A stretch of 64,000 bases of DNA from Methylovulum miyakonense HT12. Its GTDB lineage: Bacteria > Pseudomonadota > Gammaproteobacteria > Methylococcales > Methylomonadaceae. The notes under the pieces are model-generated. The model was not told the origin of the DNA and searched no databases. It saw only the letters and a program-made list of their open reading frames with translations. The stretch is from positions 4,472,187 through 4,536,186 of the forward strand of contig NZ_KB913025.1 of assembly GCF_000384075.1 (NCBI RefSeq), in the 5' to 3' direction. Made by a program: the position numbers and the translations under genes. Shown in pieces: positions 32,616-59,905 of this stretch. Each line of letters begins with the position of its first letter. Positions within the stretch are counted from its first letter, which is position 1.

Positions 32616-32691
<76 letters not shown>

Positions 32692-32739: not shown

Positions 32740-32815
<76 letters not shown>

Positions 32816-45108: not shown

Positions 45109-46124
45109 TCTGAAACTTCCTTTGAACCCGCCTTGAAAATTAAAGCCAATATGAAAAGCGGGCAATACGCCAACAACAGCCCTAGCAGGCCATTCAAACC
45201 ACCCTTACCTACCCATAATGCCACCGGTAACAACCAAAACAAGTTGATCATAACGACCGCCAATGATACTGGCTTATGTGCGCCAAACCGGCGGGCAGCC
45301 CTCTGGTAAGCATGGCTACGATGGGCTTCGTAAAATTTTTCCCCGCCTAGCAACCTGTGCAACAAAGTCCACGTCGCATCGACAATAAACACGCCTAACA
45401 AAATCAGCCAACTCCAAAAAAATTGCGGCGCGGACCACGCCGCCTGAATAGAAAACAGCCCTAACACCAAACCCAAAAAACCACTACCGGCATCACCCAT
45501 AAATATTTTCGCGGGCGGAAAATTCCAACATAAAAAACCTGCCACGGCCATCGCCAGTATCGCCAGAGGCCAATAGTGGGCGTTGTTTCCTGCCAGCCAA
45601 TATAATAATCCACCACCGGCGCAAACACTAATGGCTTCAATCCCTGCCAGCCCATCAATACCATCCATGAAATTATATAAGTTCAATAGCCAAACCAGAT
45701 AAAAGAGCCCCAAAACGCTTCCCATACCGGGCACCTGCACCAGGTTGATCATCGGTAGCGCAGGCATTCCGCCCAACCAAAACAAGCCCCAAGCGGCGGC
45801 AAGAAAATGCGCGGCTAAGCGCAGAGGTGCCGGAATATGACGACGGTCATCCATAAAACCTACCACGGCAACTAATGCGCCAGATCCTAAAAATGCGCAC
45901 AACTCCCCACTGGTCATCAAGCCCATTAAAAAAAACACCGGCACACTGAAGAGGAAAACGCACACGACCGCCAACCCGCCGCCACGGGGTGTGGGCTGAT
46001 GATGGGAGCTGCGGGCATTGGGAATATCAAGAAGACGGGTGGCAATGGCGTAGTGGCGAAACCACCCGGTCAAAATAAGCGAAGCAAGGAACGCCAACAC
46101 CAGGAAAACGGCCATCATAACCAT
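45105..46124 (-). CDS. Polyprenyl-phosphate sugar-1-phosphate transferase (WecA/WbpL/MraY family)
   Basis: Integral membrane enzyme of 339 residues with about ten helices. It starts glycan assembly by moving a HexNAc-1-phosphate from UDP to undecaprenyl phosphate. Motifs: ARSSHHQPTPRGGG, GFMDDRRHIPA (the DD pair), NLYNFMDGIDGLAG, FMGDAGSGFLG and the C-terminal HRSHAYQRA. By context with a WbpV-like reductase and a WbpM-like dehydratase it is most like WbpL, which uses UDP-QuiNAc or UDP-FucNAc. It shares one base with the upstream stop codon. Confidence 0.93.
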   Translation of the reverse strand: MVMMAVFLVLAFLASLILTGWFRHYAIATRLLDIPNARSSHHQPTPRGGGLAVVCVFLFSVPVFFLMGLMTSGELCAFLGSGALVAVVGFMDDRRHIPAPLRLAAHFLAAAWGLFWLGGMPALPMINLVQVPGMGSVLGLFYLVWLLNLYNFMDGIDGLAGIEAISVCAGGGLLYWLAGNNAHYWPLAILAMAVAGFLCWNFPPAKIFMGDAGSGFLGLVLGLFSIQAAWSAPQFFWSWLILLGVFIVDATWTLLHRLLGGEKFYEAHRSHAYQRAARRFGAHKPVSLAVVMINLFWLLPVALWVGKGGLNGLLGLLLAYCPLFILALIFKAGSKEVSE

Positions 46125-47083
46125 TAACGGGACCCCTGATAATGCCGGGCGGTTTCCCCTAATGCCTCATCAAGACCCACCCGTGGGGCCCACGCCAGCA
46201 ACTCCCGGGCCTTGGCAATATCAACTTGCAAATTGCCGCACAAACGCTGCGCCACGGCACCTTTGCCTGACAACCGCAAACCACCCGCCAATAACCCAAC
46301 CGGGACGGGAAACAGCAGCGCGGGTTTATTTAAGGCCATGGCAAGGCGGCGGAGCAAATCAGCCGTGGAGACATCGTGGCCGTCGCTGACCAAAAAAGTC
46401 TGGTTAGCCGCGGCAGGATGGGACAGGCAGAGGGTGACCATATCGACCAGGTTGTCCAGGGCGACCAGGCTACGTTTATTGTCTATCAAGGCAAACGGCA
46501 GCGGCACCCTTTTATCCACATACCGCATCAGCGTCCGGAAATTAGCCTTAACACCAGGGCCATACACCAACGGCGGGCGGATGATGACCACTTCCATGCC
46601 TGTTTCAAGGGCTAATTGACGTAACCCAGCTTCGGCTTCACATTTGGACATCCCATAGGCATCAAGCGGTGCCGGGGCGGCATCTTCCGTAAAAGGCTGG
46701 CCCGAAGGGGTATTTTCCCCATTGACCTTAACTGAACTGACAAAAACAAAGCGTTTCACACCCATGGCCGCCGCTTGCCGGGCAAGGTTCAATGTCCCCG
46801 CCACATTAATGTTGCGGTATTCGGCCAAGGCGTCGGCCGCCGTATCATGCAGGACATGGGTACGCGCCGCAAGATGCACGACACTGCCAGTATGGCCCAA
46901 CACCTGGCGCCAAACGGTCTGGCCATTAATGTCCCCGATAACAAGCTGGCCCATAGCGCCAGGCCAACCGCTGGCCACAGGCTTACGGGCAATGCCATTG
47001 ACACTAAAACCTTTTGCCATCAGTTCGGAACATAAGGCTTTGCCGACAAAGCCCGTTGCCCCCGTTACCAGCACTGTATCCAT
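46124..47083 (-). CDS. NAD-dependent epimerase/reductase (WbpV/WbpK-like SDR)
   Basis: Extended SDR of 319 residues: VTGATGFVGKALC for the dinucleotide, HLAARTHV, FVSSVKVNGE and the catalytic YGMSKCEAE (Tyr-x-x-x-Lys). Its position before a WbpL-like transferase and a WbpM-like dehydratase suggests reduction of the 4-keto sugar to UDP-QuiNAc or UDP-FucNAc, as WbpV or WbpK do in Pseudomonas. The exact product cannot be read from sequence. Confidence 0.88.
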   Translation of the reverse strand: MDTVLVTGATGFVGKALCSELMAKGFSVNGIARKPVASGWPGAMGQLVIGDINGQTVWRQVLGHTGSVVHLAARTHVLHDTAADALAEYRNINVAGTLNLARQAAAMGVKRFVFVSSVKVNGENTPSGQPFTEDAAPAPLDAYGMSKCEAEAGLRQLALETGMEVVIIRPPLVYGPGVKANFRTLMRYVDKRVPLPFALIDNKRSLVALDNLVDMVTLCLSHPAAANQTFLVSDGHDVSTADLLRRLAMALNKPALLFPVPVGLLAGGLRLSGKGAVAQRLCGNLQVDIAKARELLAWAPRVGLDEALGETARHYQGSR

Positions 47084-47127
47084 TGAAATAAAAACTTATC
47101 CAGAAAAACCGTCATTTAGGCCACCCT

Positions 47128-47967
47128 TCAATACAGGCGATAGCCCCATTTATTAAAATACTTCAGCGCACTGACGGACATCACCCAAGCCATACGCCAG
47201 CTTTTATGCGCCGCCCTCTCCCACAGATGGACGACGCTCGCATCGGGATAATAAACCGTCCTATAACCCGCCCCATGGATTTTCCGGCACAAATCGGCAT
47301 CTTCAAAATATAGGAAATAGCGTCCGTCAAAACCGCCGACCTGCTTTAAAACGGCTGTCCGGCAAAACATAAAGGCACCGGAAACAAATGGCACGTCACA
47401 GATATTCTCGTATCCGACATCTAACATGATGTAGGCATCCATTCTTTGTTGTAAGCGCCTTTGCAGCCATGCCGGGGCTATCCGCCGCAACACCAAATCC
47501 AACAGCGTGGGGAGCTTATGGTTATTGGGCTGGAGGCTACCATCGGCATTAGTCAGCCTGGGGCAGAGGATGGCTATATCGGGATGTTGGCCCATATAAT
47601 CCGCGAGGGCGGTTATAGTTTGGCCATTAATGACAATATCAGGGTTGCAAATAATATGGTAATCACTGTCCGCTTGCCCTATGGCCACATTATGACCACG
47701 GCCAAATCCAGCATTGCAAGCGTTTTGGATGACCTGGAATTGGGGGTTTTGCTCTGCGAAGTGCCTTAAGATGGCGACAGTCTCGTCCTGTGATTGGTTA
47801 TCAATTAATTGTATTGTTTTTTCATAACCGCGATGCTCAAAATGGGCTGCTAGCGACGCCAAGCAGGCGCCGATAATATGTTCACTATTATAAGTGACGA
47901 TGGATATTGAAATTTTTTTCACGATATTAAACAAACCAAACAACCGCCATAGGGCCCGCAATGCCAT
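47128..47967 (-). CDS. Family 2 glycosyltransferase (rhamnosyltransferase-like)
   Basis: GT-A glycosyltransferase of about 279 residues. The domain starts with KKISISIVTYNSEHIIGACL, has IQLIDNQSQDETV, NAGFGRGHNVAIG, the DxD-like NPDIVING, and ends with GGFDGRYFLYFEDADLCRKIHGAG, a WbbL-type signature. The start is uncertain: ATG at 47967 (used), GTG at 47922 and TTG at 48027 are all possible and none has a good ribosome site. Confidence 0.85.
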   Translation of the reverse strand: MALRALWRLFGLFNIVKKISISIVTYNSEHIIGACLASLAAHFEHRGYEKTIQLIDNQSQDETVAILRHFAEQNPQFQVIQNACNAGFGRGHNVAIGQADSDYHIICNPDIVINGQTITALADYMGQHPDIAILCPRLTNADGSLQPNNHKLPTLLDLVLRRIAPAWLQRRLQQRMDAYIMLDVGYENICDVPFVSGAFMFCRTAVLKQVGGFDGRYFLYFEDADLCRKIHGAGYRTVYYPDASVVHLWERAAHKSWRMAWVMSVSALKYFNKWGYRLY

Positions 47968-48030
47968 CTGCCCGTTAAATAAAACGGAAACGGCCCCGTC
48001 AGGCGCATTGACACATCCGCAACCCAAGCG

Positions 48031-49143
48031 TCATACAAGTATTCCGCTGGCATCAAAACGTGTGGCCCAGGAATTTGCCGCCCTGAATGCCGCAATGTCA
48101 CTTAAGCCACTCCCGTATGAAAGCGCGTCCTTCACCTGGCTAACAAGATCGGCAGCCCCGTCCAAAAAAAACACCCCCGCCTCTTCGCTGCGCCTGGCCA
48201 TTTCCCCAAAGCGCGTGGAAAGTACGGGCAAGCCCAGGGCCCGATATTCGTAAAACTTAATGGGGTCGACCGAAGCGGTGAGATCGGTGCATTTGAAAGG
48301 TATCAGGCCTACCGAAAACTCCTGCATAGCCCTGATCGCCGCGGCATGGTCACAAGCCGCCAACAATTCTACATTACCTGGCAGTGGCGTAGGCGGCGTT
48401 GAGTAGACTGGGCCGATCAGGCGGATACAGAAGGCTGGGTTGGCCTGTGCCAAAGCCACCACCAGAGGCCAATCAAACCAATGCCCGATAGTGCCGACAT
48501 ACCCCAGGACAGGCTTGTCCGGCCTGTTGGGCAAGGTGGCTGGCGGAAGCCCGCTGGTTTCGCAGGCGTTAAGGGTAAGGGCCCGTTTGGCGTGGTGACC
48601 GGCAAACCGGGACGCTAACAGGGTAGATGAAACCAACAACCGAGAGACCAAGGCAACAATTTTTCGCTCCCGCTCCGCCATTGCCGCCCGCGACCAGCCT
48701 TGGTAAAACGCCGGAAAATCATCCATGGCATCGTAAACCGAGGGGATGCCGGGATGCCGCGCCAACACCTGCAAGGCCAATTCGGAGGGTTTGCCTATGC
48801 CCAGCCAGCATTCCCCCTGATCAACAAAGGCTTTGACCGCCTGTAAGATACCGTTCCAAAGCCAACGGTTAAGCAACCCGGAACCCGGCAAAGGCTCGAT
48901 GGGCAAGGGACGCGGGCTTAGGATGGATAGCCACTCAGGGGTGGCTTTTGCCATTACAGGCTGGCTTCCGGCCTGATTCCCCGGCCTTTTCCTTTGCAAA
49001 TCCGCCAGCATCGGCAAGCGCGTCGGGTAAGGTTCCAGCCAAAGCACCTCGGCACCGGTACGCGCATGGAACCAATTGACAAATTGGTGCGGGCGTTGGG
49101 TGAAGCTATGCCAAGGCACCGGGGAGAAATACACCAAGCGCAT
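48031..49143 (-). CDS. GT-B glycosyltransferase (TuaH-like)
   Basis: Product of 370 residues. It begins MRLVYFSPVPWHSFTQRPHQFVNWF, the QRPHQ signature of TuaH-type transferases, has VYDAMDDFPAF in the middle and a GT-B donor-site half with LGYVGTIGHWFDWPLV, RLIGPV and FYEYRALGLPVLSTRFGE. Acceptor and donor are unknown. It starts directly after wecB and shares its last base. Confidence 0.85.
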   Translation of the reverse strand: MRLVYFSPVPWHSFTQRPHQFVNWFHARTGAEVLWLEPYPTRLPMLADLQRKRPGNQAGSQPVMAKATPEWLSILSPRPLPIEPLPGSGLLNRWLWNGILQAVKAFVDQGECWLGIGKPSELALQVLARHPGIPSVYDAMDDFPAFYQGWSRAAMAERERKIVALVSRLLVSSTLLASRFAGHHAKRALTLNACETSGLPPATLPNRPDKPVLGYVGTIGHWFDWPLVVALAQANPAFCIRLIGPVYSTPPTPLPGNVELLAACDHAAAIRAMQEFSVGLIPFKCTDLTASVDPIKFYEYRALGLPVLSTRFGEMARRSEEAGVFFLDGAADLVSQVKDALSYGSGLSDIAAFRAANSWATRFDASGILV

Positions 49144-50243
49144 CAGGCAAAATGTTTCCGCAGCACGCCTATAACCCGTCCGGCGGCCTGGCCATCACCG
49201 TAAGGAGAAATCCCCCGCGCCATCGCTTGGTATGCTTCCTTATCATCCAACAACTTTTGCGCTTCCTGCACAATGCGCAAGCAATCAGTCCCAACCAGTT
49301 TCACCACGCCCATTTCCACGGCTTCCGGCCTTTCGGTCTCTTCGCGCAGCACCAATACTGGCTTGCCTAAAGCCGGGGCTTCTTCCTGCACGCCGCCAGA
49401 ATCGCTGATGATGAGGTATGCAAGCTTCATAGCGGCAACAAAAGGCGCGTAATCCAAAGGTTCGCAAAGCAACATATTTTGCTGGCTTGCCAGCATCCGA
49501 TGGGCGACATCCTTCACGTTCGGGTTAGGGTGCACCGGATATAAAAACTGCACGTCCGGGTTTTGTTTCGCCAGCGTTTGCAAGGCCAAGCAAATATTCT
49601 CGAACGGTTCGCCGAAATTCTCACGGCGATGGCAAGTGATTAACACCAGGCGCCGCGTAGGGTCAAGACCAATGCCAACGTCCAGTTCTTTGGCGGCGGT
49701 CATCAGCAAGGCATCAATCACGGTATTGCCGGTCACGCTAATGTCACCATCGGCGATGCCTTCGCGGAGCAAATTCTGCCGCGACCCTTCAGTAGGGGCG
49801 AAATGCCAACGCGCCAATTTTCCCGCTATCACCCGGTTGGCTTCTTCCGGAAAAGGGTTTTGCATGTCCCACGTCCGCAAGCCCGCCTCGACATGGCCGA
49901 TGGGGATACGCTGGTAAAAACAGGCCAAAGCCACGGTCATCACTGTCGTGGTGTCGCCTTGGACTAGCACGACATCTGGTTTTTCCGTCGCCAGCACCGT
50001 ATCCAACTCCAACAGCAGACGTGCGGTCAATGTTGTCAGCGATTGGTTCGGGCGCATGATGTCCAAATCAATATCCGGCCGGATACCGAAAAACCCCAAC
50101 ACTTGATCCAACATCTGGCGGTGCTGCGCCGTGGCCAAAACCCGGACTTCCGCCCAAGGCTCATTTTTTAACCCTAAAATCACTGGAGCCATTTTGATGG
50201 CTTCAGGCCGGGTGCCGACAACACTCAAAATACGTTTTTTCAT
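49143..50243 (-). CDS. wecB: UDP-N-acetylglucosamine 2-epimerase (non-hydrolysing)
   Basis: Enzyme of 366 residues that makes UDP-ManNAc. Markers: SVVGTRPEAIKMAPVI, VLVQGDTTTVMTVALACFY, HVEAGLRTWDMQNPFPEEANR, ITCHRRENFGEPF, SDSGGVQEEAPALGKPVLVLRE. I chose the ATG at 50243; ATG at 50255 and a start further upstream are in frame but less like the family N-terminus. No wecC is near, so ManNAc itself may be used. Confidence 0.95.
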   Translation of the reverse strand: MKKRILSVVGTRPEAIKMAPVILGLKNEPWAEVRVLATAQHRQMLDQVLGFFGIRPDIDLDIMRPNQSLTTLTARLLLELDTVLATEKPDVVLVQGDTTTVMTVALACFYQRIPIGHVEAGLRTWDMQNPFPEEANRVIAGKLARWHFAPTEGSRQNLLREGIADGDISVTGNTVIDALLMTAAKELDVGIGLDPTRRLVLITCHRRENFGEPFENICLALQTLAKQNPDVQFLYPVHPNPNVKDVAHRMLASQQNMLLCEPLDYAPFVAAMKLAYLIISDSGGVQEEAPALGKPVLVLREETERPEAVEMGVVKLVGTDCLRIVQEAQKLLDDKEAYQAMARGISPYGDGQAAGRVIGVLRKHFA

Positions 50244-50265
50244 TTTATGTTCCATTTTTATAAAG

Positions 50266-51513
50266 CTACTGCCGCAACACCTCAAGATAGGCCTCGGCCC
50301 GCAAGTCCCAGGTGTTCAGGTTTGCCAATTTAAGGACGGCTTCCCGGTAGCTTGGCGTTTCACCAGCGTGGGCTGCCGCCCTAATCGCCGATATGAGCGT
50401 CGGTAAATCCGCACCTGAAAAAACTTCGGCAAACGCCGTGCATTCTTGCATTTCGGCCGTCACGACCACCGGCTTCTCCAAGGCAAAGTATTCATACAGC
50501 TTAAGCGGCGAGGTTGACCGGGCAATTGTACCGGGCGAGAAAGGGATAAAACAAACGTCGAACTGGTCGGCGTAAGCGGGCAGGACGTTATAATCAACAG
50601 CCCCCATGTACAGGACATTGGGGCTACGGGGCAGTTTGCCGGCACAGCCACCGTAGTCCGGGCCGATATAAACAAAACCAAATTCCGGCATCTGTCCGGC
50701 CAATTGCGACATCATGTCGAACCACAACCACGGGGCGACCGCGCCGAAATAGCCGACCAACGTCCGATAGCGCCCACGGAACCCGACAAAACGTTCCGGC
50801 AACGCCGCCGCCCTGTCCCGGCCATCACGGAAATGGCCAACGTCAACACCATTGGCAATGTAGGCGACAGCTTTATCCGGTGCCAAGGCGCTGAGTTCCT
50901 CATACAACACCCGGGCGCTCGCGACCAGATAATCAGCCTGGCCGGAGCAGGCGGCGGTTTTCAGCGCCAGCAAGCGCTGGACTTCCGCCTGGCTGCCGGA
51001 AATCGCGGCGTCAATGTGGTCGATGTATTCGTACACAACCCGGCCGTGTTGACGGTGTCCGGCCATTTGTGCAGGCGAGGAGAGGCTGGCGGTGCTGTAA
51101 ACACACCAGACCGCCCCTTCTAACGCGGTTATCTCCGGCGTCCCCACCAGCCAAACGTTCGGCGCGATAGCCCGCACCCCGCCAACACCATCGCCAGTTG
51201 TCCGATACAGCACGATACAACCCTTACGGCCTAAAGCCATCGCCATGTGCTGCGGACGCTGGAACAGCGTCACCCCCCAATCAATGGTCGGTTCAAACAC
51301 CAGGACGATTACCGACGGGTCACGGCAATCCAACACTTCCGCACAAAAATCGGCCCAAGCCATGTCCGCACTGGTAGCTGGTGAAAGCGAGGCAAGCCGG
51401 GTACGCCATAACCTCACTAACTGGTGCCGGACACCATGAAGGCGTTCCCTAAGCGGCCCCGGAAGCGCCCAAAAAGCCGCTTTAGCCAACTCATAGGGAT
51501 TAACCCGTGGCAC
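50266..51513 (-). CDS. GT-B glycosyltransferase
   Basis: Product of 415 residues related by motif to the transferase at 48031: it has WGVTLFQRPQHMAMALG near residue 80, VYEYIDHID, and a C-terminal donor half with VGYFGAVAPWLWFDMM, FVYIGPDYGG and LYEYFALEKPVVVTAEM. Its 5' end overlaps the preceding large gene by 14 bp. Specificity unknown. Confidence 0.83.
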   Translation of the reverse strand: MPRVNPYELAKAAFWALPGPLRERLHGVRHQLVRLWRTRLASLSPATSADMAWADFCAEVLDCRDPSVIVLVFEPTIDWGVTLFQRPQHMAMALGRKGCIVLYRTTGDGVGGVRAIAPNVWLVGTPEITALEGAVWCVYSTASLSSPAQMAGHRQHGRVVYEYIDHIDAAISGSQAEVQRLLALKTAACSGQADYLVASARVLYEELSALAPDKAVAYIANGVDVGHFRDGRDRAAALPERFVGFRGRYRTLVGYFGAVAPWLWFDMMSQLAGQMPEFGFVYIGPDYGGCAGKLPRSPNVLYMGAVDYNVLPAYADQFDVCFIPFSPGTIARSTSPLKLYEYFALEKPVVVTAEMQECTAFAEVFSGADLPTLISAIRAAAHAGETPSYREAVLKLANLNTWDLRAEAYLEVLRQ

Positions 51514-54500
51514 GGCTACGCCCTGTGGCTAGCGATGCAAACTGATTGGTCCAGGCATCAGGGAAATCCTTGCCCTGCACCTCCTTGCCTTGCAGCAAAT
51601 CCCCGACCAATCTGACATAGCAACGGTAGGCGTTGGCTTTATCAAACGCATCCAGCACCTCAGCCGGCAAATCGGGGCAGCGGCGGCTTCCGTATAGCTT
51701 AAGCATGGCCGTCGCCACCCGGCTTTCAAACTCCGGTGTGGAAGCCAGTTGCCAGATGGCGCCCTTAAATTCTGCAATGTCCAGCGGAGGCGGGACGATT
51801 TCACAACCGGGCCGGTCTTTGAAATATCCGGCAAAACCAACATCCGTCATGACGCAAGGCAAATTTGCCCTCAACGCCTCCAATTGGTTCAATGGCCCGC
51901 CCTCAAAGAAGGCCGTGCTGACAAAAGCGTCCGCCATGGCATAGTACTTTTGCGCCCCCGGCACGGCACCGACATACAATATCCGCCCGTCCAAATGTTG
52001 CGCCGCAATCCACTGCCTGATCTCTTCCAGCAAACCTGTTTCATAGGGCGGCCCAAGGATCACCAGCTTGGCCTCAGGCATTTCCCCGGCTATAGCCGAG
52101 AAGGCACGGACGGCGGCGATATGGTTTTTCTGATGGTTGATGGCGCCGACGCCCACAAACACGAAGTCATTATCACTTAAACCATGCCGGGTGCGGATTT
52201 CCTGCCGCGCCCCGGCTTTGTCGATAGCATCGAAAGCGCGGTTGTCAATGCCATTTGGAATGACCAGGCAACTATTCCCATCAATGCCTAGCCGGCGGAT
52301 GCTGTAACGCTTGGCATATTCCGAGACTGCGACAAAAATGCTGGTGTAGCGGGCCGCGTTGGCGAATGCCGCCCGCTGTGCGTCATCGAACCACATATAA
52401 GTGTTGTGTATGACTTGCACAAAGGGGATGTTCAATTCGTGGCACAATTCGGCACCGTGCAAGGAATAATGCGCAAGCACTAAACGCGGTTTGAGGCTTT
52501 TGATGAGCTCCCGATACAGCTTCGGTTCCTCGGAACTGACAATCACCGGAATGCCCTGTGCCCGCGCCCGTTGCACGCTGGCGCCCGCTATGCCAAGCAC
52601 CAATAGCACGACCTTGTGGCCTGCCGCGATCAGCGTGCCATTCAGGTCGATGACCACATTTTCAAGGCCTCCCGCTTCGAAGTTGTCGACCTGGACCAGC
52701 ACGTCACACTCAGGTGAAACTAACGCGATGACCTGCGCCAAGACTTCCGCCTCCGTCGTTGCCCGCGGCGAAACGCTGCCAACGGCTCTCCGGGCGGATG
52801 CCTTCATGCCCCGCCAGATCGAACGGGCCAGCCAACCTTGGCGCGTATTGGGCGGCAAGAGCTTTTTGATCCGGGCCAACAAAGTGGGCTGCCAACACCC
52901 CCCAGCCAGGACGGCGCATATATCCTTGGCGCCTTGCCTGCGCACCTCGCGCATCCGTTCATAGATCGTAAAATTTTGTTTCGCCATCGCCGTGCGCTGT
53001 TCTTCGCTCGGCAGATTCCCCCGTAACAGTTCCTCCAAAGCCAAAAACTGCATGCCCATCGCTTTGAAATCGCCAACGTCCTCACAATCAACCACGGGGA
53101 CGATGCCCATTGCCAGATACTCGACCAACTTGGTCGGACAAGCGACATGGTTGACGATAATGTCTTCACGCAAGATAAAGCCGTAATGGCACTCGGCATA
53201 AAGGCTGACCAATTCGTCATGGGCTTTACAATCAACCACCACCTGGGAACGGACCGCTTCGGGCAACATCGCGCGAAAAACTTCAGGTTCCGGACAATAA
53301 AAAAGGTGTGTGCAGATTGACGCGGTGCGGCTGATGGCGTCGACCATTTTGGGGACTTGTTGCCATTTTTGCAGGCCGCCCGCATAAACCACCACGGGTT
53401 TGCCATCGGCATACGGGCGTGCCGCAAGCGTCGGGTGAATATTCGGGAACATGGGGAAAAGGGTGGTTTGGCCTTTCAATTCATCCCGATATTTCTGCCG
53501 CAAATAGTTTTTCATCGCCTCGGTGACCACCACCACCAAATTGCTTTTGCGCACCGCCAAACGTTCTTGGCGTTCATAAAGCAACGCGCTATAAAAATCA
53601 TTATGGAAACGGAATTCTTCGGGAACCACGCCATGGATGTCGATTATCTTAGTCAGGCCAGGCACATGCATCAGGAGGCCAAACCCGTTGTGGGGCATCC
53701 TAAGGACGCTATGGAAATAGATTTTCCGGCACTTGAGCACGGCAAGCAGCACCAAAGCGGCCCCTAACATCCGGCGGCGCGGCCCTCCCCACGTCGTCAA
53801 CACCAACACCTTGGGTTGCGGCAGATCAAACCAACGGCTACGATGGCCAGGCAACTCGCCGCTTTCCACATATACCCGCCAATATTCCGGGAACAAGCCA
53901 TCGACAATTTGGATGCGTTGGAAATAACCATCGCTTTGCCGTTCCGGATAAGGGTAGCCACCAAAAAAGACAATGCCGCGCAGCTTAAGCAAAAAAGGCA
54001 AGCCCTTTTTCAATAGCCACCATAGCTTGCTCAGCCGGCTATGCCCGGCGGTGGGCGGCAATGCCGATTCCAGGGAAAAATCCTCGGGCCCGTCCTCAGT
54101 TTGGAACAGCAAGGCATGCATCGCGAAATTACATTCGACCCGTGCCCGGACACCTTTAGCAATCTGCCCAAGCTGGGCGCATAAATCATCGGCAAGGGAT
54201 TGGTGGCCGGGGGCATGGCTAAAAACGGCCTCCGTACCCGCAACGATATGCTGCCAGATAGCCATCAAATCGCCGAAACTGCTGGCCAGATCGATTTTGT
54301 CGCGTAACTCCGAATCCACCGGCAAATCTGAATCAGCCAACATCTGGCTCAAGTTCCTAAATTCGTACTCAAAATGCCCAAGCACGGCACCCAATTGGGC
54401 GACGTAAAGGGCGTTGAACCGTTGCCGCCCGGCGCTGCCACGGCTTTGGGCGCCCGTAAACGCCAGATCCATCAGGTAAGAGATAAAAGGCTTCTCATGC

Positions 54501-55312
54501 CTTGGCTGCCAAATAATCCCATGTTTTTTCTCAAGGTAATCCCGGTTACGTTGGGCGCTGCTGTTGAAGTAACCATATTGCAGCTTACCGAAAGAAGCCG
54601 ATCCCCAGTGATGGATAAACACATCGCGGGCCAAATGGATACGGAAACCCAGCTGGCGTGCCCGCAAACAGTAATCATCGTCTTCATAGCCCCCGGGGAA
54701 AAAAGTTTCATCGAGCAAGCCAACTTTTTCGATCACCTGTTTGACCAACAGCACACAAAAGAATGTGGCGTCAGCCTCGACCAGATTGCCCGCCCATGCC
54801 TCATGCCAATCCTTGGCGAAATGTTGGACATTAGCTAACAGTTTTGGCGGGATGCTTTCAGTTTGCCCATCCAGGCACTGGTCGAATTCAAAGGCGTAAT
54901 CAATGGGGACGCATTGTTCGCTTTCGGCCTTGTTGGTGACGGCGCTGATGATGTCGCACCGGTGTTGCACCAGGTAATCCAGCCAATGGTCAGTGACCAC
55001 CACATCGCTGTTGAGCAGGCAGATGCCGGTAATTTCAGGGTCATCCAGGAAATGCCGGATACCGACGTTATTGCCGCCAGAAAAACCGAGGTTCTTGTCC
55101 TGTTCCAGATATTCCCAAGGCAAAGCGGCTTCCCTGAGATGCCTTTCGAACGCGGCACGGATTTCTTCACGCTCCAGATCGTCCGACGCATTGTCTATGA
55201 GCAAGACCTTGGACGGCGTCTCATTTTTTGCCTCGCGAAGGGACGCAAGCGTTATCCGGACTGCCGTTGATGCATTGTGCGACACAATGACAATGCCTAT
55301 TTGCTGATTCAT
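51500..55312 (-). CDS. Three-module glycosyltransferase (GT2 + GT-B + GT4)
   Basis: Very large transferase of 1270 residues. Module 1 (about 1-290) is GT2: IGIVIVSHNASTAVRITLASL, LLIDNASDD, NLGFSGGNNVG, LLNSDVVV, GGYEDDDYCLRARQLG. Module 2 (about 430-800) is GT-B-like: GIVFFGGYPYPERQSDGYF, IDIHGVVPEE, VYAGGLQKWQQVPKMV, CPTKLVEYLAMGIVPVVD. Module 3 (about 880-1260) is GT4: FEAGGLENVVIDLNGTL, IPNGIDNRAFD, VGAINHQKNHIAAVRAFS, FFEGGPLNQLEALRANLPCVMT. Three catalytic units on one chain could add several sugars of a repeat processively, as WbdA-type enzymes do. It overlaps its neighbours by 4 and 14 bp. Confidence 0.88.
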   Translation of the reverse strand: MNQQIGIVIVSHNASTAVRITLASLREAKNETPSKVLLIDNASDDLEREEIRAAFERHLREAALPWEYLEQDKNLGFSGGNNVGIRHFLDDPEITGICLLNSDVVVTDHWLDYLVQHRCDIISAVTNKAESEQCVPIDYAFEFDQCLDGQTESIPPKLLANVQHFAKDWHEAWAGNLVEADATFFCVLLVKQVIEKVGLLDETFFPGGYEDDDYCLRARQLGFRIHLARDVFIHHWGSASFGKLQYGYFNSSAQRNRDYLEKKHGIIWQPRHEKPFISYLMDLAFTGAQSRGSAGRQRFNALYVAQLGAVLGHFEYEFRNLSQMLADSDLPVDSELRDKIDLASSFGDLMAIWQHIVAGTEAVFSHAPGHQSLADDLCAQLGQIAKGVRARVECNFAMHALLFQTEDGPEDFSLESALPPTAGHSRLSKLWWLLKKGLPFLLKLRGIVFFGGYPYPERQSDGYFQRIQIVDGLFPEYWRVYVESGELPGHRSRWFDLPQPKVLVLTTWGGPRRRMLGAALVLLAVLKCRKIYFHSVLRMPHNGFGLLMHVPGLTKIIDIHGVVPEEFRFHNDFYSALLYERQERLAVRKSNLVVVVTEAMKNYLRQKYRDELKGQTTLFPMFPNIHPTLAARPYADGKPVVVYAGGLQKWQQVPKMVDAISRTASICTHLFYCPEPEVFRAMLPEAVRSQVVVDCKAHDELVSLYAECHYGFILREDIIVNHVACPTKLVEYLAMGIVPVVDCEDVGDFKAMGMQFLALEELLRGNLPSEEQRTAMAKQNFTIYERMREVRRQGAKDICAVLAGGCWQPTLLARIKKLLPPNTRQGWLARSIWRGMKASARRAVGSVSPRATTEAEVLAQVIALVSPECDVLVQVDNFEAGGLENVVIDLNGTLIAAGHKVVLLVLGIAGASVQRARAQGIPVIVSSEEPKLYRELIKSLKPRLVLAHYSLHGAELCHELNIPFVQVIHNTYMWFDDAQRAAFANAARYTSIFVAVSEYAKRYSIRRLGIDGNSCLVIPNGIDNRAFDAIDKAGARQEIRTRHGLSDNDFVFVGVGAINHQKNHIAAVRAFSAIAGEMPEAKLVILGPPYETGLLEEIRQWIAAQHLDGRILYVGAVPGAQKYYAMADAFVSTAFFEGGPLNQLEALRANLPCVMTDVGFAGYFKDRPGCEIVPPPLDIAEFKGAIWQLASTPEFESRVATAMLKLYGSRRCPDLPAEVLDAFDKANAYRCYVRLVGDLLQGKEVQGKDFPDAWTNQFASLATGRSRATG

Positions 55313-57678
55313 TTTCTCTTAACCTGTTCTAATATTCGTCGCCATAACGGTTTATGTTGCCCCGGCAATCGGCCGTGCCCTGTACCGTTTTTAGTTTTTA
55401 GTGTTTCCAATTCAATACGGGCCACCTTTATTTCTTCCCTTAAGTGCCTCACCTCTTGGGCAAGCACTTGCGCCTGCCTGTCTTTCTCCCCCACTTCCCG
55501 AGCCAAGGCCTGGGCATGGGCATCCAGACGGGTGACTTCACGGGCAAGCTCTTGGGCATTGCTGTATTGATGGGCCACATCACGCGCCAGCTGCTGGTTG
55601 GCATAGTCCAAACCCGCTATCCGTCCGTTGAGGGCAATAACCGCAGCCTCCTTGCTTGCCTGTTCTTGGGCCAGCCCCGTCAGTTGCCGTTCAAAAAAAC
55701 CTGAAGCTTGGGCAAGGAAGGCCTTAGGGCGGCAGTTGTAATGATCTAGCCCTTCAAGCATATAAGCCGCCCTGCTGCCTTTATCCATCAATTGCGCCAT
55801 CTCCGCGTAACCGAACGGAAGCGGATGCTTGGCGTCGCCGCTAATGTTTAACCAAGATCCGGAACTCAGGCGTTGGCACTCGCTAACCGCACGCAAGAGG
55901 GACGACCTGGCCTGTTCAAGGTCGCCAGCGCCAATCGCCAACATGGCCGACCAATGCAGGGCATCCAGGACACGGTTACCCAGCAGGGGGCTGTAGGCCA
56001 TCACGTCTTTGCCGGCACAGGCTTCATATAAAGACCTCGCCTCGGAAAAATTCCCGTGCAAACGCGCCAGTTCGCCCCCCGCAAACAACAGGGAAACTTG
56101 CCAACGTAGCTGGTGTGGCGTCGGGTTAGCTATACGGGCATAGTCCTGTAACCGTCCTATCAGGGCTTCATAGTCTTCCTGCCCGATATAAGGTTGGGCC
56201 AATTTCCCATAGACTAGGCCGCATAATGCGGCGCCAAAATCGGCGCTTTCATTGCCCTGCGTAGCGAGGACGGAGTGCTGGAGTTTTTCAAGCACCCGGG
56301 CGGATTGGTTGCGGAAACCGATGGCCACCATGCCCTTCACCAGCCATGGGTTGGCATAGTCACGGGCAAAAGCCGAGACATGGAAATCCTCGGATCCGGG
56401 CAATTGCCATACCGTCTCGTCATAGGGGACATCGGCGCCTTCAAGCGGATCCTGCATGCACAGGAATAAGGCCCACTCGGCTTCATCCGGTGGATTGGTG
56501 TAGGGGTCGACTTCTTGCCAGCGTCTTGGCGAGTGGTGGCACTTCATCGCGCCCCCGGCTATTTGGAGGAAGCTTTTTTCAACCAGGAATTTCCCGCTGC
56601 ACTCCTCCCTTAAGCGGTCCCACGTATAGACGTGCAGGTGGTGGGGGTTCGGGTCTTTGCCGGTTTCGTCCGCCCAATAATTAGGGGCGCACACCATTAC
56701 CCGGCCTGAAGGCTTGAGGATACGTTTTAACTCACTCAGATAATCCAGGGGATTCGGGACATGTTCTATCGTTTCAAATGCGGCGATAAAATCGACGCTG
56801 TTATCAGCGATAAACGCCAGGTTCTCCGCGTCGCCGGCCCGGAACCCTATATGGCCTGGAATGGCATAATTGGATTCCGCATACGCTATGGCACCGGCAC
56901 TCAGGTCAACGCCCAACACGGAACGCGCCTGCGAGTTGTGATGGAGGAGATGGCTACCGTAGCCTAGCCCGCAGGCGACATCAAGGACGGTATCGCCAGG
57001 CCGGATATACTCGGCCGCCATGACATACCGGATACAGTGCGCATCACTCCGGCGACCGGTTTCGCGCAACATATCCCTATGCAAAAGATGCTCGCTTTCC
57101 AATGCCGGATCCAAAAAACTGGCCTCAGGTATTTTTTCCAGCAGGATGGACAGTTGCGGCGGTTCGCCATTTAGGGATTCGTAAGGGTTTGCCTGGTAAT
57201 AGGCGGGATGCTTCCGGAACCTTGCCGCAAAACAGCGATCTTCCCACCAAGCCCGGCCTTCAACAATCAGGCGGCCCTGCCCGTCCGGTTCTGATGTGGT
57301 CGCGATTTGCAGGAAAACGAACTGTGAGCTGACACGGTACATCTCGCTAAGGGCGGAATTGACATCCATAGGCCCAAGGCGCTCCAGACAACCGGCGGCC
57401 ACCAACGTTTGAAATTGCCCGTCAGCATAAGGCAACGCAAGCACCGTACCTGACCGGAAACGCCCAGGCCATTTGAGGTTGCTACGGGCCACCAAGGCTT
57501 CCGAGCCATCAACCCCGGAAGCGTCAACACCATATCTAAGCAGCCCCCCAACCAAGTGGCCTTCACCGCTGCCAATAACGAGCGTGGCGCCTATCCCGCA
57601 AGTTTGGGCGACTAGTCTTGCCACGGCGGCTATATCACCGGAGCCGCCGGTCTGGCCAGACTGTGTTTCAACGCCCAT
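55309..57678 (-). CDS. Dual methyltransferase with C-terminal coiled coil; possible glycan-chain capping protein
   Basis: Protein of 789 residues. Domain 1 (about 25-130) is a Rossmann methyltransferase (LVIGSGEGHLVGGL; SGVDGSEALV). Domain 2 (about 195-360) is a second, canonical one (VLDVACGLGYGSHLL, VLGVDLSAGAIAYA, FETIEHVPNP). A helical, TPR-like region follows (about 480-650), then a coiled coil (about 665-760) with four 14-residue repeats, and a basic amphipathic end (PLWRRILEQVKRK) that could touch the membrane. Context (before a Wzt with a C-terminal glycan-binding domain) and layout recall WbdD, which methyl-caps O-antigen and uses a coiled coil as a length ruler; no kinase domain is seen here. 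Function is inferred. Confidence 0.8.
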   Translation of the reverse strand: MGVETQSGQTGGSGDIAAVARLVAQTCGIGATLVIGSGEGHLVGGLLRYGVDASGVDGSEALVARSNLKWPGRFRSGTVLALPYADGQFQTLVAAGCLERLGPMDVNSALSEMYRVSSQFVFLQIATTSEPDGQGRLIVEGRAWWEDRCFAARFRKHPAYYQANPYESLNGEPPQLSILLEKIPEASFLDPALESEHLLHRDMLRETGRRSDAHCIRYVMAAEYIRPGDTVLDVACGLGYGSHLLHHNSQARSVLGVDLSAGAIAYAESNYAIPGHIGFRAGDAENLAFIADNSVDFIAAFETIEHVPNPLDYLSELKRILKPSGRVMVCAPNYWADETGKDPNPHHLHVYTWDRLREECSGKFLVEKSFLQIAGGAMKCHHSPRRWQEVDPYTNPPDEAEWALFLCMQDPLEGADVPYDETVWQLPGSEDFHVSAFARDYANPWLVKGMVAIGFRNQSARVLEKLQHSVLATQGNESADFGAALCGLVYGKLAQPYIGQEDYEALIGRLQDYARIANPTPHQLRWQVSLLFAGGELARLHGNFSEARSLYEACAGKDVMAYSPLLGNRVLDALHWSAMLAIGAGDLEQARSSLLRAVSECQRLSSGSWLNISGDAKHPLPFGYAEMAQLMDKGSRAAYMLEGLDHYNCRPKAFLAQASGFFERQLTGLAQEQASKEAAVIALNGRIAGLDYANQQLARDVAHQYSNAQELAREVTRLDAHAQALAREVGEKDRQAQVLAQEVRHLREEIKVARIELETLKTKNGTGHGRLPGQHKPLWRRILEQVKRK
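55432..55599 (-). repeat. Four 14-residue coiled-coil repeats (42-bp coding repeats)
   Basis: Residues 694-749 of the dual methyltransferase are four units in exact 14-residue register: NQQLARDVAHQYSN, AQELAREVTRLDAH, AQALAREVGEKDRQ, AQVLAQEVRHLREE. Each is two heptads with Leu and Val at core positions. Confidence 0.85.
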
Positions 57679-57711: not shown

Positions 57712-59103
57712 TCATTGCCCCGCCCACTTGGCTGTCATCTGCAAGTCCGTGCTGCCACCAAAAAAATATTCTTTCTGGCGCATGAGCACCTGGAAAAAAG
57801 CGGCCTCATCCACCCAATGGAGCATCCGTTGCTCCGTGTAATCGGGCTTGCCTTCATAGGATAGGGAGGCCTGAATTTCATACAGGTTGACCCCCAAGAT
57901 GGAGGCAAACTCGAACCACACGCTAAATTTTTCGCCCGCCCGGATGTGCCTCCCCCAATAAAGCGGCCCTTGTTGCAAACCTGCAAGCACTTGCATGTCC
58001 TGATTCAAGGTCCCCCACGAGTAAACCTTGATCCCTTCGCGGCTGCGGATACGGATGGCGACATTGATCTTGTCGGTGTCAATCCCGGAAAGGCTTTCCA
58101 CGCAAATGCGGACCGTGTCACCGGGATAGAATACCGCGCACGGGTTGCCTTCCTGGTCGAAAGTACCGACGCTGGTAATCTCCATCCCGCCGTCACCAAA
58201 GGACATCGAATCTGAACGCCCAAGCACTTCACCGACATTGTCGGCGCTATTGTTTTTGCCAATAACCGCGGCCGCGCCTTGTTTTTTCTTTTCCTCAATA
58301 TTGCCCGCGATCGCGCTGAAATAAGCGGATTCCTCTTCGTGCAATAACTTACGGTAGGCAAGGATCGCCTCTGACGACGGGCCACAAAAAACTGGTTTCC
58401 CGCGATGCAATAAAATCGAGCGGTGGGTCAGGGTCCGGACAGATTCCTGGTCATGCGAGACGAACATCAATGTCACGCCATCGGCCAACAGGCGCTCGAT
58501 CCGTTCATAACAGCGTTTCTGGAATAAGGCGTCCCCTACGGCAAGCGCCTCATCGACGATAAGGATATCCGGCTCGACCTGGACTTGGACTGCGAAAGCC
58601 AGCCTCACCAACATGCCGCTCGAATAGGTTTTCACCGGCTGTTCCAGATATTCGCCAATATCGGCAAAAGCGGCAATGGCGTCAAAGCGTTGCTCTATTT
58701 CCGCTTGGGACATACCCAGCAACATGCCGTTGAGGAACACGTTTTCGCGGCCGGTATAATCAGGGTTAAACCCTGAACCCAGTTCCAATAAGGCGGCAAT
58801 CCGCCCTTGGGTAAAAATGGTCCCGGTTGTGGGGGCTAAAGTGCCCGTCACCAGTTGCAACAAGGTGCTTTTGCCGCTGCCGTTGCGCCCGACCACGCCA
58901 AACGACTCGCCGCGCTTGATTTCGAATGAAATGTCCCGCAACGCCCAATATTCCTTGAAGTAGTCCTTGCCCGTAGAACCCAAAACATTGCGGATAGGCG
59001 GAATGATAAACTGCTTTAGCCTATTCCTCGGACTGTCATAAACTTCGTACCTTTTGCCCAAGTTTTCAACACGGACGGCTATTTCGTTAGAGGACATCTG
59101 CAA
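57712..59103 (-). CDS. wzt: ABC transporter ATPase for glycan export with Wzt C-terminal domain
   Basis: ATPase of 463 residues. The nucleotide-binding half has GRNGSGKSTLLQLV (Walker A), KTYSSGMLVRLAFAV (signature) and ILIVDEALAVGDALF (Walker B). After about residue 290 a beta-sandwich Wzt_C-like domain follows (MEITSVGTFDQEGN, FYPGDTVRICVE, FSVWFEFASILGVNLYEI), which in O9a-type systems binds the capped end of the glycan before export. It overlaps wzm by 17 bp. Confidence 0.94.
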   Translation of the reverse strand: MQMSSNEIAVRVENLGKRYEVYDSPRNRLKQFIIPPIRNVLGSTGKDYFKEYWALRDISFEIKRGESFGVVGRNGSGKSTLLQLVTGTLAPTTGTIFTQGRIAALLELGSGFNPDYTGRENVFLNGMLLGMSQAEIEQRFDAIAAFADIGEYLEQPVKTYSSGMLVRLAFAVQVQVEPDILIVDEALAVGDALFQKRCYERIERLLADGVTLMFVSHDQESVRTLTHRSILLHRGKPVFCGPSSEAILAYRKLLHEEESAYFSAIAGNIEEKKKQGAAAVIGKNNSADNVGEVLGRSDSMSFGDGGMEITSVGTFDQEGNPCAVFYPGDTVRICVESLSGIDTDKINVAIRIRSREGIKVYSWGTLNQDMQVLAGLQQGPLYWGRHIRAGEKFSVWFEFASILGVNLYEIQASLSYEGKPDYTEQRMLHWVDEAAFFQVLMRQKEYFFGGSTDLQMTAKWAGQ

Positions 59104-59905
59104 AGCCTTTACGAGTTTTCTGGAACCACGCGAACCCTAACCAAGCGACCAAGAGCGAGACCAGCATATAAACAGACCAAGCCAGCCAATCCATACCCTT
59201 ACCCCAGATCATCACGTCGCGGGCCCACTCAACCACTAGCGTCAGCGGGCTGAATTGCATTAATGGCCGATAGGATGCCGGAAGCGATTCGATAGGATAA
59301 AAAATGGGGGACAAAAACATGAGCGCGGAGGTCATTACGCCAATAACTTGGGTAATGTCGCGCATATACACCCCAAGCGACACCAGGAACCAACTGAACC
59401 CTAAAGTCAGCAAGACTAGCGGCAGCAAAGCCAGCGGGAACAGCACGATAGTGGCGGGCGGTATGCCAAATAAGACAAGATGGAAAAGTAACCACACCGT
59501 AAAGCTGACTAGCATGTGAAATGTGGCGGAACCTAATGCGACCATCGGCAATATTTCCAACGGGAACACGACTTTTTTTACGTAATTGATATTACCAAGC
59601 ACTAGGCTGGGCGCACGGTTAATGCATTCTGCAAATAAATTAAACGTCATCAGACCGACAAAAAGCACTAGGGCAAACTCCGCCTTCGAACTCGAACCGC
59701 CCGGCCATCGCGCCTTTAAGACCACGCTAAGGAAGAAGGTGTACACCAACAACATGAAGAAAGGGGTGAAGAAAGACCAGAGCATGCCTAGGAATGTGCC
59801 TTTATAGCGTCCGGTCACTTCCCGGACGACAAGCGCCTTGATTAAGCCCCGGTTGCGCCAAAAGCCGCCCACCATCGCTTTCGGTGAAATTGAAAAACGC
59901 TGCAT
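59087..59905 (-). CDS. wzm: ABC transporter permease for glycan export
   Basis: Integral membrane subunit of 272 residues, ABC2 type, six helices. It begins with an amphipathic segment (GLIKALVVREVTGRYKGTFLGMLWSFFTPFFMLLVYTFF) split by the usual RY-GT-LG pattern and continues with INYVKKVVFPLEILPMVALG and FLSPIFYPIESLP. With Wzt it exports a polyprenyl-linked glycan to the periplasm. It is the first gene of the cluster; an AGTATA (TATACT on the minus strand, 59965-59970) upstream may be a -10. Confidence 0.94.
   Translation of the reverse strand: MQRFSISPKAMVGGFWRNRGLIKALVVREVTGRYKGTFLGMLWSFFTPFFMLLVYTFFLSVVLKARWPGGSSSKAEFALVLFVGLMTFNLFAECINRAPSLVLGNINYVKKVVFPLEILPMVALGSATFHMLVSFTVWLLFHLVLFGIPPATIVLFPLALLPLVLLTLGFSWFLVSLGVYMRDITQVIGVMTSALMFLSPIFYPIESLPASYRPLMQFSPLTLVVEWARDVMIWGKGMDWLAWSVYMLVSLLVAWLGFAWFQKTRKGFADVL

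Follow-up and report, generated by a model that had tools for sequence, protein, structure and literature searches.

What would a protein with two methyltransferase domains and a long coiled coil do beside the genes of a glycan exporter? The question is posed by a 789-residue protein of Methylovulum miyakonense HT12, encoded on the minus strand of a 64,000-nucleotide stretch of contig NZ_KB913025.1 (positions 4,472,187 to 4,536,186; here called the window). An earlier interpretation of the letters alone (the sequence-only reading) proposed that the protein caps the chain of a glycan and sets its length, next to a Wzt that reads the cap. Gene context, glycosyltransferase fusions, the association of the coiled coil with Wzt and the variation in repeat copy number support that proposal, and because of them we consider it quite probable that the protein is a chain terminator and length ruler of a surface glycan of O-antigen type, exported by an ATP-binding cassette (ABC) transporter, with the second methyltransferase domain (D2) adding a methyl cap and the coiled coil serving as spacer. 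Computation gives the predicted folds and motifs, the gene context, the fusions, the association of the coiled coil with Wzt and the differences in copy number among relatives. Methyl-only caps made by coiled-coil terminators are already known elsewhere; the most promising features here are the proposed repeat-encoded ruler and a possible link to the glycosyltransferase family GT137.

Predicted architecture of the protein

The gene and the parts of its product are as follows.

55309..57678, minus strand: whole gene, D1-D2-TPR-coiled coil-basic tail, 789 amino acids (open reading frame list, ATG start, Pfam, AlphaFold2)
57133..57633, minus strand: D1, first Rossmann methyltransferase domain, residues 16-182 (AlphaFold2 model, profile match, motif survey)
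56455..57054, minus strand: D2, second methyltransferase domain, residues 209-408, motif VLDVACGLGYGS (Pfam, AlphaFold2, motif survey)
55741..56370, minus strand: TPR-like helical domain, residues 437-646 (AlphaFold2 model, profile)
55390..55698, minus strand: coiled coil, residues 661-763, with decayed 14-residue repeats, the proposed length ruler (heptad score, AlphaFold2, self-identity)
55315..55353, minus strand: basic C-terminal helix, residues 776-788 (AlphaFold2 at low confidence, charge count)

Structure prediction of the protein alone bears out the two Rossmann methyltransferases, helical middle and coiled coil of the sequence-only reading, the AlphaFold2 model having a mean pLDDT (predicted local distance difference test) of 88.2 and a pTM (predicted template modelling score) of 0.82 from a 36-row alignment (35 relatives plus the window protein). 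Pfam places Methyltransf_11 in two stretches (E 1.7e-31), the better being 232-328, and the profile of the family alignment matches S-adenosylmethionine (SAM) methyltransferases across D1 and D2. The best PDB matches of the model in Foldseek are tandem methyltransferases, the plant phosphoethanolamine methyltransferases. In the tandem enzymes of phosphoethanolamine methylation, each of the two domains carries out a separate step.

For the middle domain a kinase was considered and rejected; model and profile make it TPR-like, and the earlier statement that the protein has no kinase is correct. Consensus TPR proteins were matched at about profile positions 535-613, where only the total over several short stretches passes and no single stretch does, and TPR_8 is found in a Photobacterium relative at E 2.6e-7. 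The coiled coil gives a run of 108 residues by a heptad score of our own (its threshold set after shuffling the window protein), the longest run in 40 shuffles being 52; its self-identity at an offset of 14 is 33%, equalled in 0 of 2000 shuffles. The proposed basic amphipathic tail stands as to its charge, +8 net over the last 30 residues, and as to its helix (776-788) only at low confidence. Such a helix could possibly contact the membrane or the polymerase.

The coiled coil, the exporter and the repeat-encoded length

Relatives were gathered by several routes. A scan of genome contigs with the single protein returned 24 pattern matches, none of them a relative; an alignment-based scan of genome contigs gave 68 loci, plasmids gave more, and the comparison set, which includes further genome searches, has 78 rows. 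The family is patchy: with the window's own genome included, it occurs in 4 of 201 family genomes (single protein, 1e-20) and 2 of 369 class genomes (alignment query, 1e-40), and among phages one record has a partial match, over residues 202-358. Wzm and Wzt lie directly upstream also in relatives from Pseudomonas, Pandoraea, Photobacterium, Nitrospiraceae, Phycisphaerales, Paenibacillus and others. Altogether 35 of the 78 rows are Wzt-linked, by BLAST within the fetched stretch, entered by hand, a procedure that misses more distant Wzt genes such as that of the Rhizobium leguminosarum row L011 (about 8 kb off, outside the stretch).

Coiled coil and linkage go together. Among the 62 of the 78 rows that could be tabulated, a coiled coil of at least 60 residues follows the TPR domain in 29 of 30 Wzt-linked rows versus 1 of 32 non-linked ones (Fisher 3e-15, related rows counted as independent). 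The other 16 rows were filtered out for a short flank, a poorly covered TPR region or a contig end; the table excludes the window's own short locus (Wzt-linked, 108-residue run) and L011. Its exceptions are L028, Wzt-linked without a coiled coil and 462 bp from a contig end, and L064, with a 69-residue coiled coil and no linkage. On a tree of D2 plus TPR (L010 of Escherichia coli left out, the window protein added), at least 6 changes of Wzt linkage and at least 8 of the coiled coil are needed, and 4 independent contrasts on supported branches agree in 3.9 cases on average.

In some relatives the coiled coil is encoded by DNA repeats. Arrays with a period of at least 42 bp (TRF) are found within the coiled coil in 15 rows, all Wzt-linked, and in 13 of the 15 the period is 42, 84, 105 or 168 bp, that is, a multiple of 21 bp. 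A single period was counted per gene even where TRF gave several, and the binomial test on the arrays counts related rows as independent. A two-copy 13-bp match inside the coiled coil of L027 was not counted, nor were L005 and L006, which differ in architecture. These last two belong to another methyltransferase-coiled coil family, with 42-bp arrays in the coiled coil; L006 lies beside Wzt. Two Burkholderia rows (L041, L043) have a period of 369 bp, not a heptad multiple, unlike the other 13 arrays.

The clearest series is in seven Pseudomonas aeruginosa plasmids, whose coiled coils have 4, 4, 4, 6, 7, 7 and 9 copies of a 28-residue (84-bp) repeat. Residues 2-669 of the terminator protein are identical in all seven records found, and the adjacent Wzt gene is identical in the six compared. 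These plasmids (L007, L085-L090) carry an ABC-type glycan cluster; copies of ISPpu21 lie near the L007 cluster, and in L085 one lies directly 3' of the terminator gene. Smaller changes are seen in two Nitrospiraceae relatives, whose coiled coils differ by two 14-residue gaps plus substitutions, and in E. coli, where the plasmid copy L010 is without one 14-residue unit present in the chromosomal copy L082 (4 other differences). In E. coli O9a, according to a review, insertions in the WbdD coiled coil raise and truncations lower the modal chain length (PMC5082667). A literature search that covered few subscription papers found no published report of repeat-number variation in terminator coiled coils. 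As one part of a tentative proposal taken up in the last section, ruler length may change in evolution as heptad-block DNA repeats are gained and lost, which would act as a natural dial for the length of the glycan.

Fusions add a further tie. A GT4-type domain follows the coiled coil in all six long Wzt-linked relatives scanned (L016, L025, L031, L034, L035, L045). In L016 it is preceded by a GT2 domain, which is the order in the separate 1270-residue glycosyltransferase encoded next to the window's terminator gene, and the tail of L016 matches residues 871-1232 of that enzyme with 32% identity (E 8e-49); the tails of the other five have no match to it at 1e-3. The fusions suggest that terminator and transferase work as partners.

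These data bear on a different role, in which the protein is an internal glycan methyltransferase acting on sugars within the chain or on a sugar-nucleotide, with a coiled coil that only assembles an enzyme complex. The coiled-coil-less relatives away from Wzt lend it some support. Within the fetched stretch, 7 of 32 non-Wzt rows (L009, L061-L063, L070, L071, L078) have flagellin, FliD, FliS or hook/rod genes nearby, a Bradyrhizobium row adjoins ABC and HlyD genes, and an Alteromonas row adjoins sugar-nucleotide genes; the core probably has other glycan roles there. The methyltransferase-TPR core may be a unit of general use in glycan modification, equipped with the coiled coil when it serves an ABC exporter. 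For the window protein, however, an internal role seems distinctly unlikely, as the coiled coil tracks Wzt, differs in length between relatives in steps of whole heptad blocks, and in six of them is followed by a fused glycosyltransferase.

If the protein is a terminator and ruler, it could work as follows. The coiled coil, about 150 Å long if it is one straight helix, would hold the D1-D2-TPR part off the membrane, so that only a long enough chain reaches D2. D2 would then transfer a methyl group from SAM to the non-reducing end and stop chain growth, and the C-terminal domain of Wzt would read the capped end and Wzm/Wzt export the glycan. For the window system, methyl as the cap, the acceptor sugar, the membrane and polymerase contacts and the setting of chain length by coiled-coil length belong to the inferred part of this scheme.

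The acting domain and the cap read by Wzt

The sequence-only reading had the cap made by two methyltransferases. This is not supported as stated, since D1 decays in many relatives and D2 does not. The SAM motif of D2 is intact in 76 of the 78 rows, the exceptions being E. coli L010 and R. leguminosarum L011, whereas a loose pattern finds that of D1 in 17 of 35 Wzt-linked and 10 of 43 other rows. D1 is decayed even in the near relatives L079 and L033 and is kept in L014. Two active methyltransferases were therefore not upheld as the defining feature of the family. Because its SAM motif is near-universal and that of D1 often decayed, D2 is the best candidate for the required activity; by sequence conservation it is likely to be the essential catalytic domain, and it is the domain that probably adds the methyl cap. 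As to a SAM pocket in D1 of the window protein, the GxGxG motif is kept as GSGEG, and after strand 2 the acid is kept as Asp57, but the motif-I acid is replaced by Val34. D1 would be one of two things: a second methyltransferase, or a SAM-binding scaffold that many relatives can do without.

In a two-step variant D1 and D2 would methylate different hydroxyls, to give a di-O-methylated terminal sugar. That both methyltransferase folds are predicted, that about half of the Wzt-linked rows keep the D1 motif by the loose pattern, and that the top fold matches are the tandem enzymes with a separate step per domain speak for it. We regard it as doubtful, given the valine at the motif-I acid and the decay of D1 in close relatives.

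The surrounding cluster comprises:

57712..59103, minus strand: Wzt, ATPase plus C-terminal cap-binding domain (Pfam, model, structure alignment)
57757..58203, minus strand: Wzt_C domain, a distinct subtype accompanying the terminator family (PF14524, E 1.9e-17; subtype comparison)
59087..59905, minus strand: Wzm permease (ABC2_membrane; Pfam)
51500..55312, minus strand: 1270-residue glycosyltransferase, GT2 at the start and GT4 at the end (Pfam)
43150..51513, minus strand: remaining same-strand cluster genes (open reading frame list, Pfam)

Along the minus strand the order is Wzm, Wzt, the terminator gene, the 1270-residue GT2...GT4 gene, and then more genes for glycosyltransferases and sugar-nucleotide enzymes, as far as about 43150. 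The placement of the gene between a multi-module glycosyltransferase and a Wzt with a Wzt_C domain was thus read correctly from the letters. The terminator gene and the glycosyltransferase gene share an ATGA, the stop codon of the first overlapping the ATG of the second, and the GT2...GT4 protein is likely the polymerase. The 43150..51513 segment encodes a Polysacc_synt_2 protein, a Glycos_transf_4 (polyprenyl-type initiating) transferase, an epimerase, a GT2 protein and a UDP-GlcNAc 2-epimerase; its open reading frames 48031-49143 and 50266-51513 are without a Pfam match at 1e-6 and look like glycosyltransferases. The window also has a tandem pair of tRNA genes with equal scores (32619-32691 and 32743-32815).

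The Wzt_C domain sets this Wzt apart. In its ATPase part the window Wzt shares on average 64% identity with the Wzt partners of 33 relatives, against 41-57% with 20 generic Wzt (the best-scoring PF14524 loci among class genomes) and two others. For the C domain the partners average 47.5%, and the generic and two other Wzt either reach 20-29% or have no match. Some Wzt_C occurs in 81 of 369 class genomes, and the window's subtype, at E 1e-5, in 1 of 369, its own genome only. Of the 22 plasmid records that match the subtype, 18 also carry the TPR protein, the other four being from Azospirillum, at 28%. A second Wzm/Wzt_C locus in the same genome (L091, C1 at about 1656000) is of another subtype; none of its 12 open reading frames of at least 200 residues has a heptad run above 50 residues.

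In Aquifex aeolicus, Wzt_C binds 3-O-methyl-mannose through a methyl pocket of Leu300, Thr346, Ala348 and Trp362 (PMC9445017). The window Wzt model (pLDDT 82.6) aligns with the Aquifex WzmWzt over about 440 columns including the cap-binding domain, with the domains placed differently (root-mean-square deviation about 15 Å). By a weak alignment (19.5 bits; a numbering shift by one is inferred) the pocket positions map to Arg351, Gln411, Ser413 and Trp430 of the window protein. All 34 Wzt_C of the subtype, the partner of E. coli L010 included, have Arg351, Gln411, Glu409, Asp369 and Trp430. A comparison with generic Wzt_C rests on the 8 of 22 generic loci that gave segments above 100 residues: Arg351, Glu409 and Gln411 occur in none of the 8 aligned sequences, and Arg351 and Gln411 mark the subtype. 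Trp430 was rejected as a methyl-specific mark, a Trp being there in all 8.

Several observations weigh against a methyl-capping terminator and ruler. In the same weak alignment Arg351 and Gln411 are more polar than Leu300 and Thr346 of Aquifex. E. coli L010 has the TPR domain, the coiled coil and the same Wzt_C subtype, yet both of its SAM motifs are lost; since the subtype is kept beside it all the same, the subtype is no plain sign of a methyl cap. D1-D2-TPR relatives also occur away from Wzt. The tree-based test is underpowered, with 4 pairs, a median p of 0.125 and significance out of reach. The basic tail, predicted at low confidence, is found in only some Wzt-linked relatives and was not upheld as a feature of the whole family.

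The polar pocket suggests another cap: the protein would still be terminator and ruler, but of a chain ending in an acidic or special terminal sugar, perhaps methylated, which a basic Wzt_C pocket reads, the chemistry of D1-D2 having changed as in GT137. The invariant residues, shared with the partner of a protein without SAM motifs and, for Arg351, Glu409 and Gln411, foreign to the generic domains, fit this, and so does ORF7 of Klebsiella pneumoniae O4, which has the same layout and adds Kdo (3-deoxy-D-manno-oct-2-ulosonic acid), as described in PMC11231755. We nevertheless hold it to be unlikely, because the near-universal SAM motif of D2 makes methyl transfer the default and the pocket mapping depends on the 19.5-bit alignment. 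A still more remote suggestion is that Wzt_C recognises the TPR scaffold itself, instead of or together with the cap. The subtype does accompany the TPR-coiled coil protein even without SAM motifs; among its invariant positions, however, are ones that align with the Aquifex sugar pocket, and relatives not linked to Wzt have the TPR domain as well, so that this is very improbable. The methyl cap added by D2 is the reading retained below.

Known terminators and a possible origin of GT137

The window system has the traits of the class of coiled-coil terminators: the catalytic domain precedes an extended coiled coil, and the neighbouring genes encode Wzm and a Wzt with a C-terminal cap-binding domain. 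The sequence-only reading went too far in calling it a candidate new type. Coiled-coil terminators that make methyl-only caps are described for E. coli O8 (PMC3482155, PMC11231755) and O101/O162 (PMC13168486), and O4 ORF7 has the same layout. Like the window protein, WbdD of E. coli O9a/O8 has an N-terminal methyltransferase, a coiled coil and a Wzt with a cap-reading domain; O9a WbdD has one methyltransferase and a kinase, whereas the window protein has two methyltransferase domains, a TPR-like domain and no kinase. WbdD does not appear in the 60 PDB matches of the window protein (E up to 1) or in the best 60 of 94 profile matches. The O101/O162 enzyme MT also combines a methyltransferase with a coiled coil and is needed for O-methylation of the glycan, but has one predicted methyltransferase domain where the window protein has two (PMC13168486). 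K. pneumoniae O7 ORF6 and O12 WbbB are single chains that combine a terminator, a coiled coil and polymerase modules, a likeness of layout to the six fused relatives; the O7 terminator is a methyltransferase-kinase and WbbB a Kdo transferase, in which they differ from the window protein (PMC11231755). The Aquifex WzmWzt (8DKU, 7K2T) likewise has a Wzt with a cap-binding domain, and Aquifex has 3-O-methyl caps (PMC9445017); the window Wzt_C is a distinct subtype with other pocket residues.

The closest likeness, drawn by description, is to K. pneumoniae O4 ORF7 (GT137), which is a proven Kdo-transferring terminator with two methyltransferase-like Rossmann domains, a TPR-like bundle and a coiled coil, encoded in an ABC-transporter O-antigen locus, as is the window protein (PMC11231755). 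No domain of ORF7 is recognised from sequence, whereas the window protein keeps its SAM motifs and its D2 is recognised by Pfam. Apart from ORF7, our search of the literature, in which few subscription papers were covered, found no dual-methyltransferase TPR layout.

E. coli L010 may connect the two. Its gene is present in 189 of 5426 complete E. coli genomes, at 188 chromosomal places and on 1 plasmid (a 29-kb record), and in the one genome examined the chromosomal copy L082 is on an island beside tRNA-Sec. The six-gene cluster of L010 (GT4, Wzm, Wzt, L010 protein, glycosyltransferase, and a protein that matches HAD only weakly, E 0.023) resembles in make-up that of Klebsiella O4. L010 matches residues 406-622 of the window protein with 28.7% identity (E 2e-24), and in a profile comparison its N-terminus matches the methyltransferase half with 43% probability over 26 columns (E 2.4e-4); ten shuffles of L010 and L011 gave 0.016 or worse and three unrelated proteins 0.078 or worse. 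L011, whose open reading frame ends within the TPR region and whose two SAM motifs are lost, alone reaches 96.6% over 198 columns, and a joint L010-L011 profile 39%; the Wzt about 8 kb from L011 has a C domain 33% identical to the window's. At this level of sequence comparison the case for a methyltransferase origin is good for L011 and suggestive for L010. With L010 as proxy for ORF7, which was compared by description only, GT137 may be a lapsed tandem methyltransferase.

A wider proposal, which we put forward tentatively and think possible rather than probable, is that one ancient scaffold of tandem methyltransferase fold, TPR domain and coiled coil is a swappable terminator. Its members would mostly make methyl caps, those without SAM motifs (the L010 type and probably GT137) adding another group such as Kdo; the GT137 fold would be a repurposed double methyltransferase, the ruler would evolve by heptad-block repeats in the DNA, and a dedicated Wzt_C subtype would travel along.

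The general picture is of a family in which genes beside an ABC exporter encode a coiled coil and those elsewhere nearly always lack it. The family hints at a source for the unexplained fold of GT137. Spread across phyla, it is a ready test set for the ruler hypothesis, and the P. aeruginosa plasmids with 4, 6, 7 and 9 units are natural variants for such a test, which should differ in modal glycan length.

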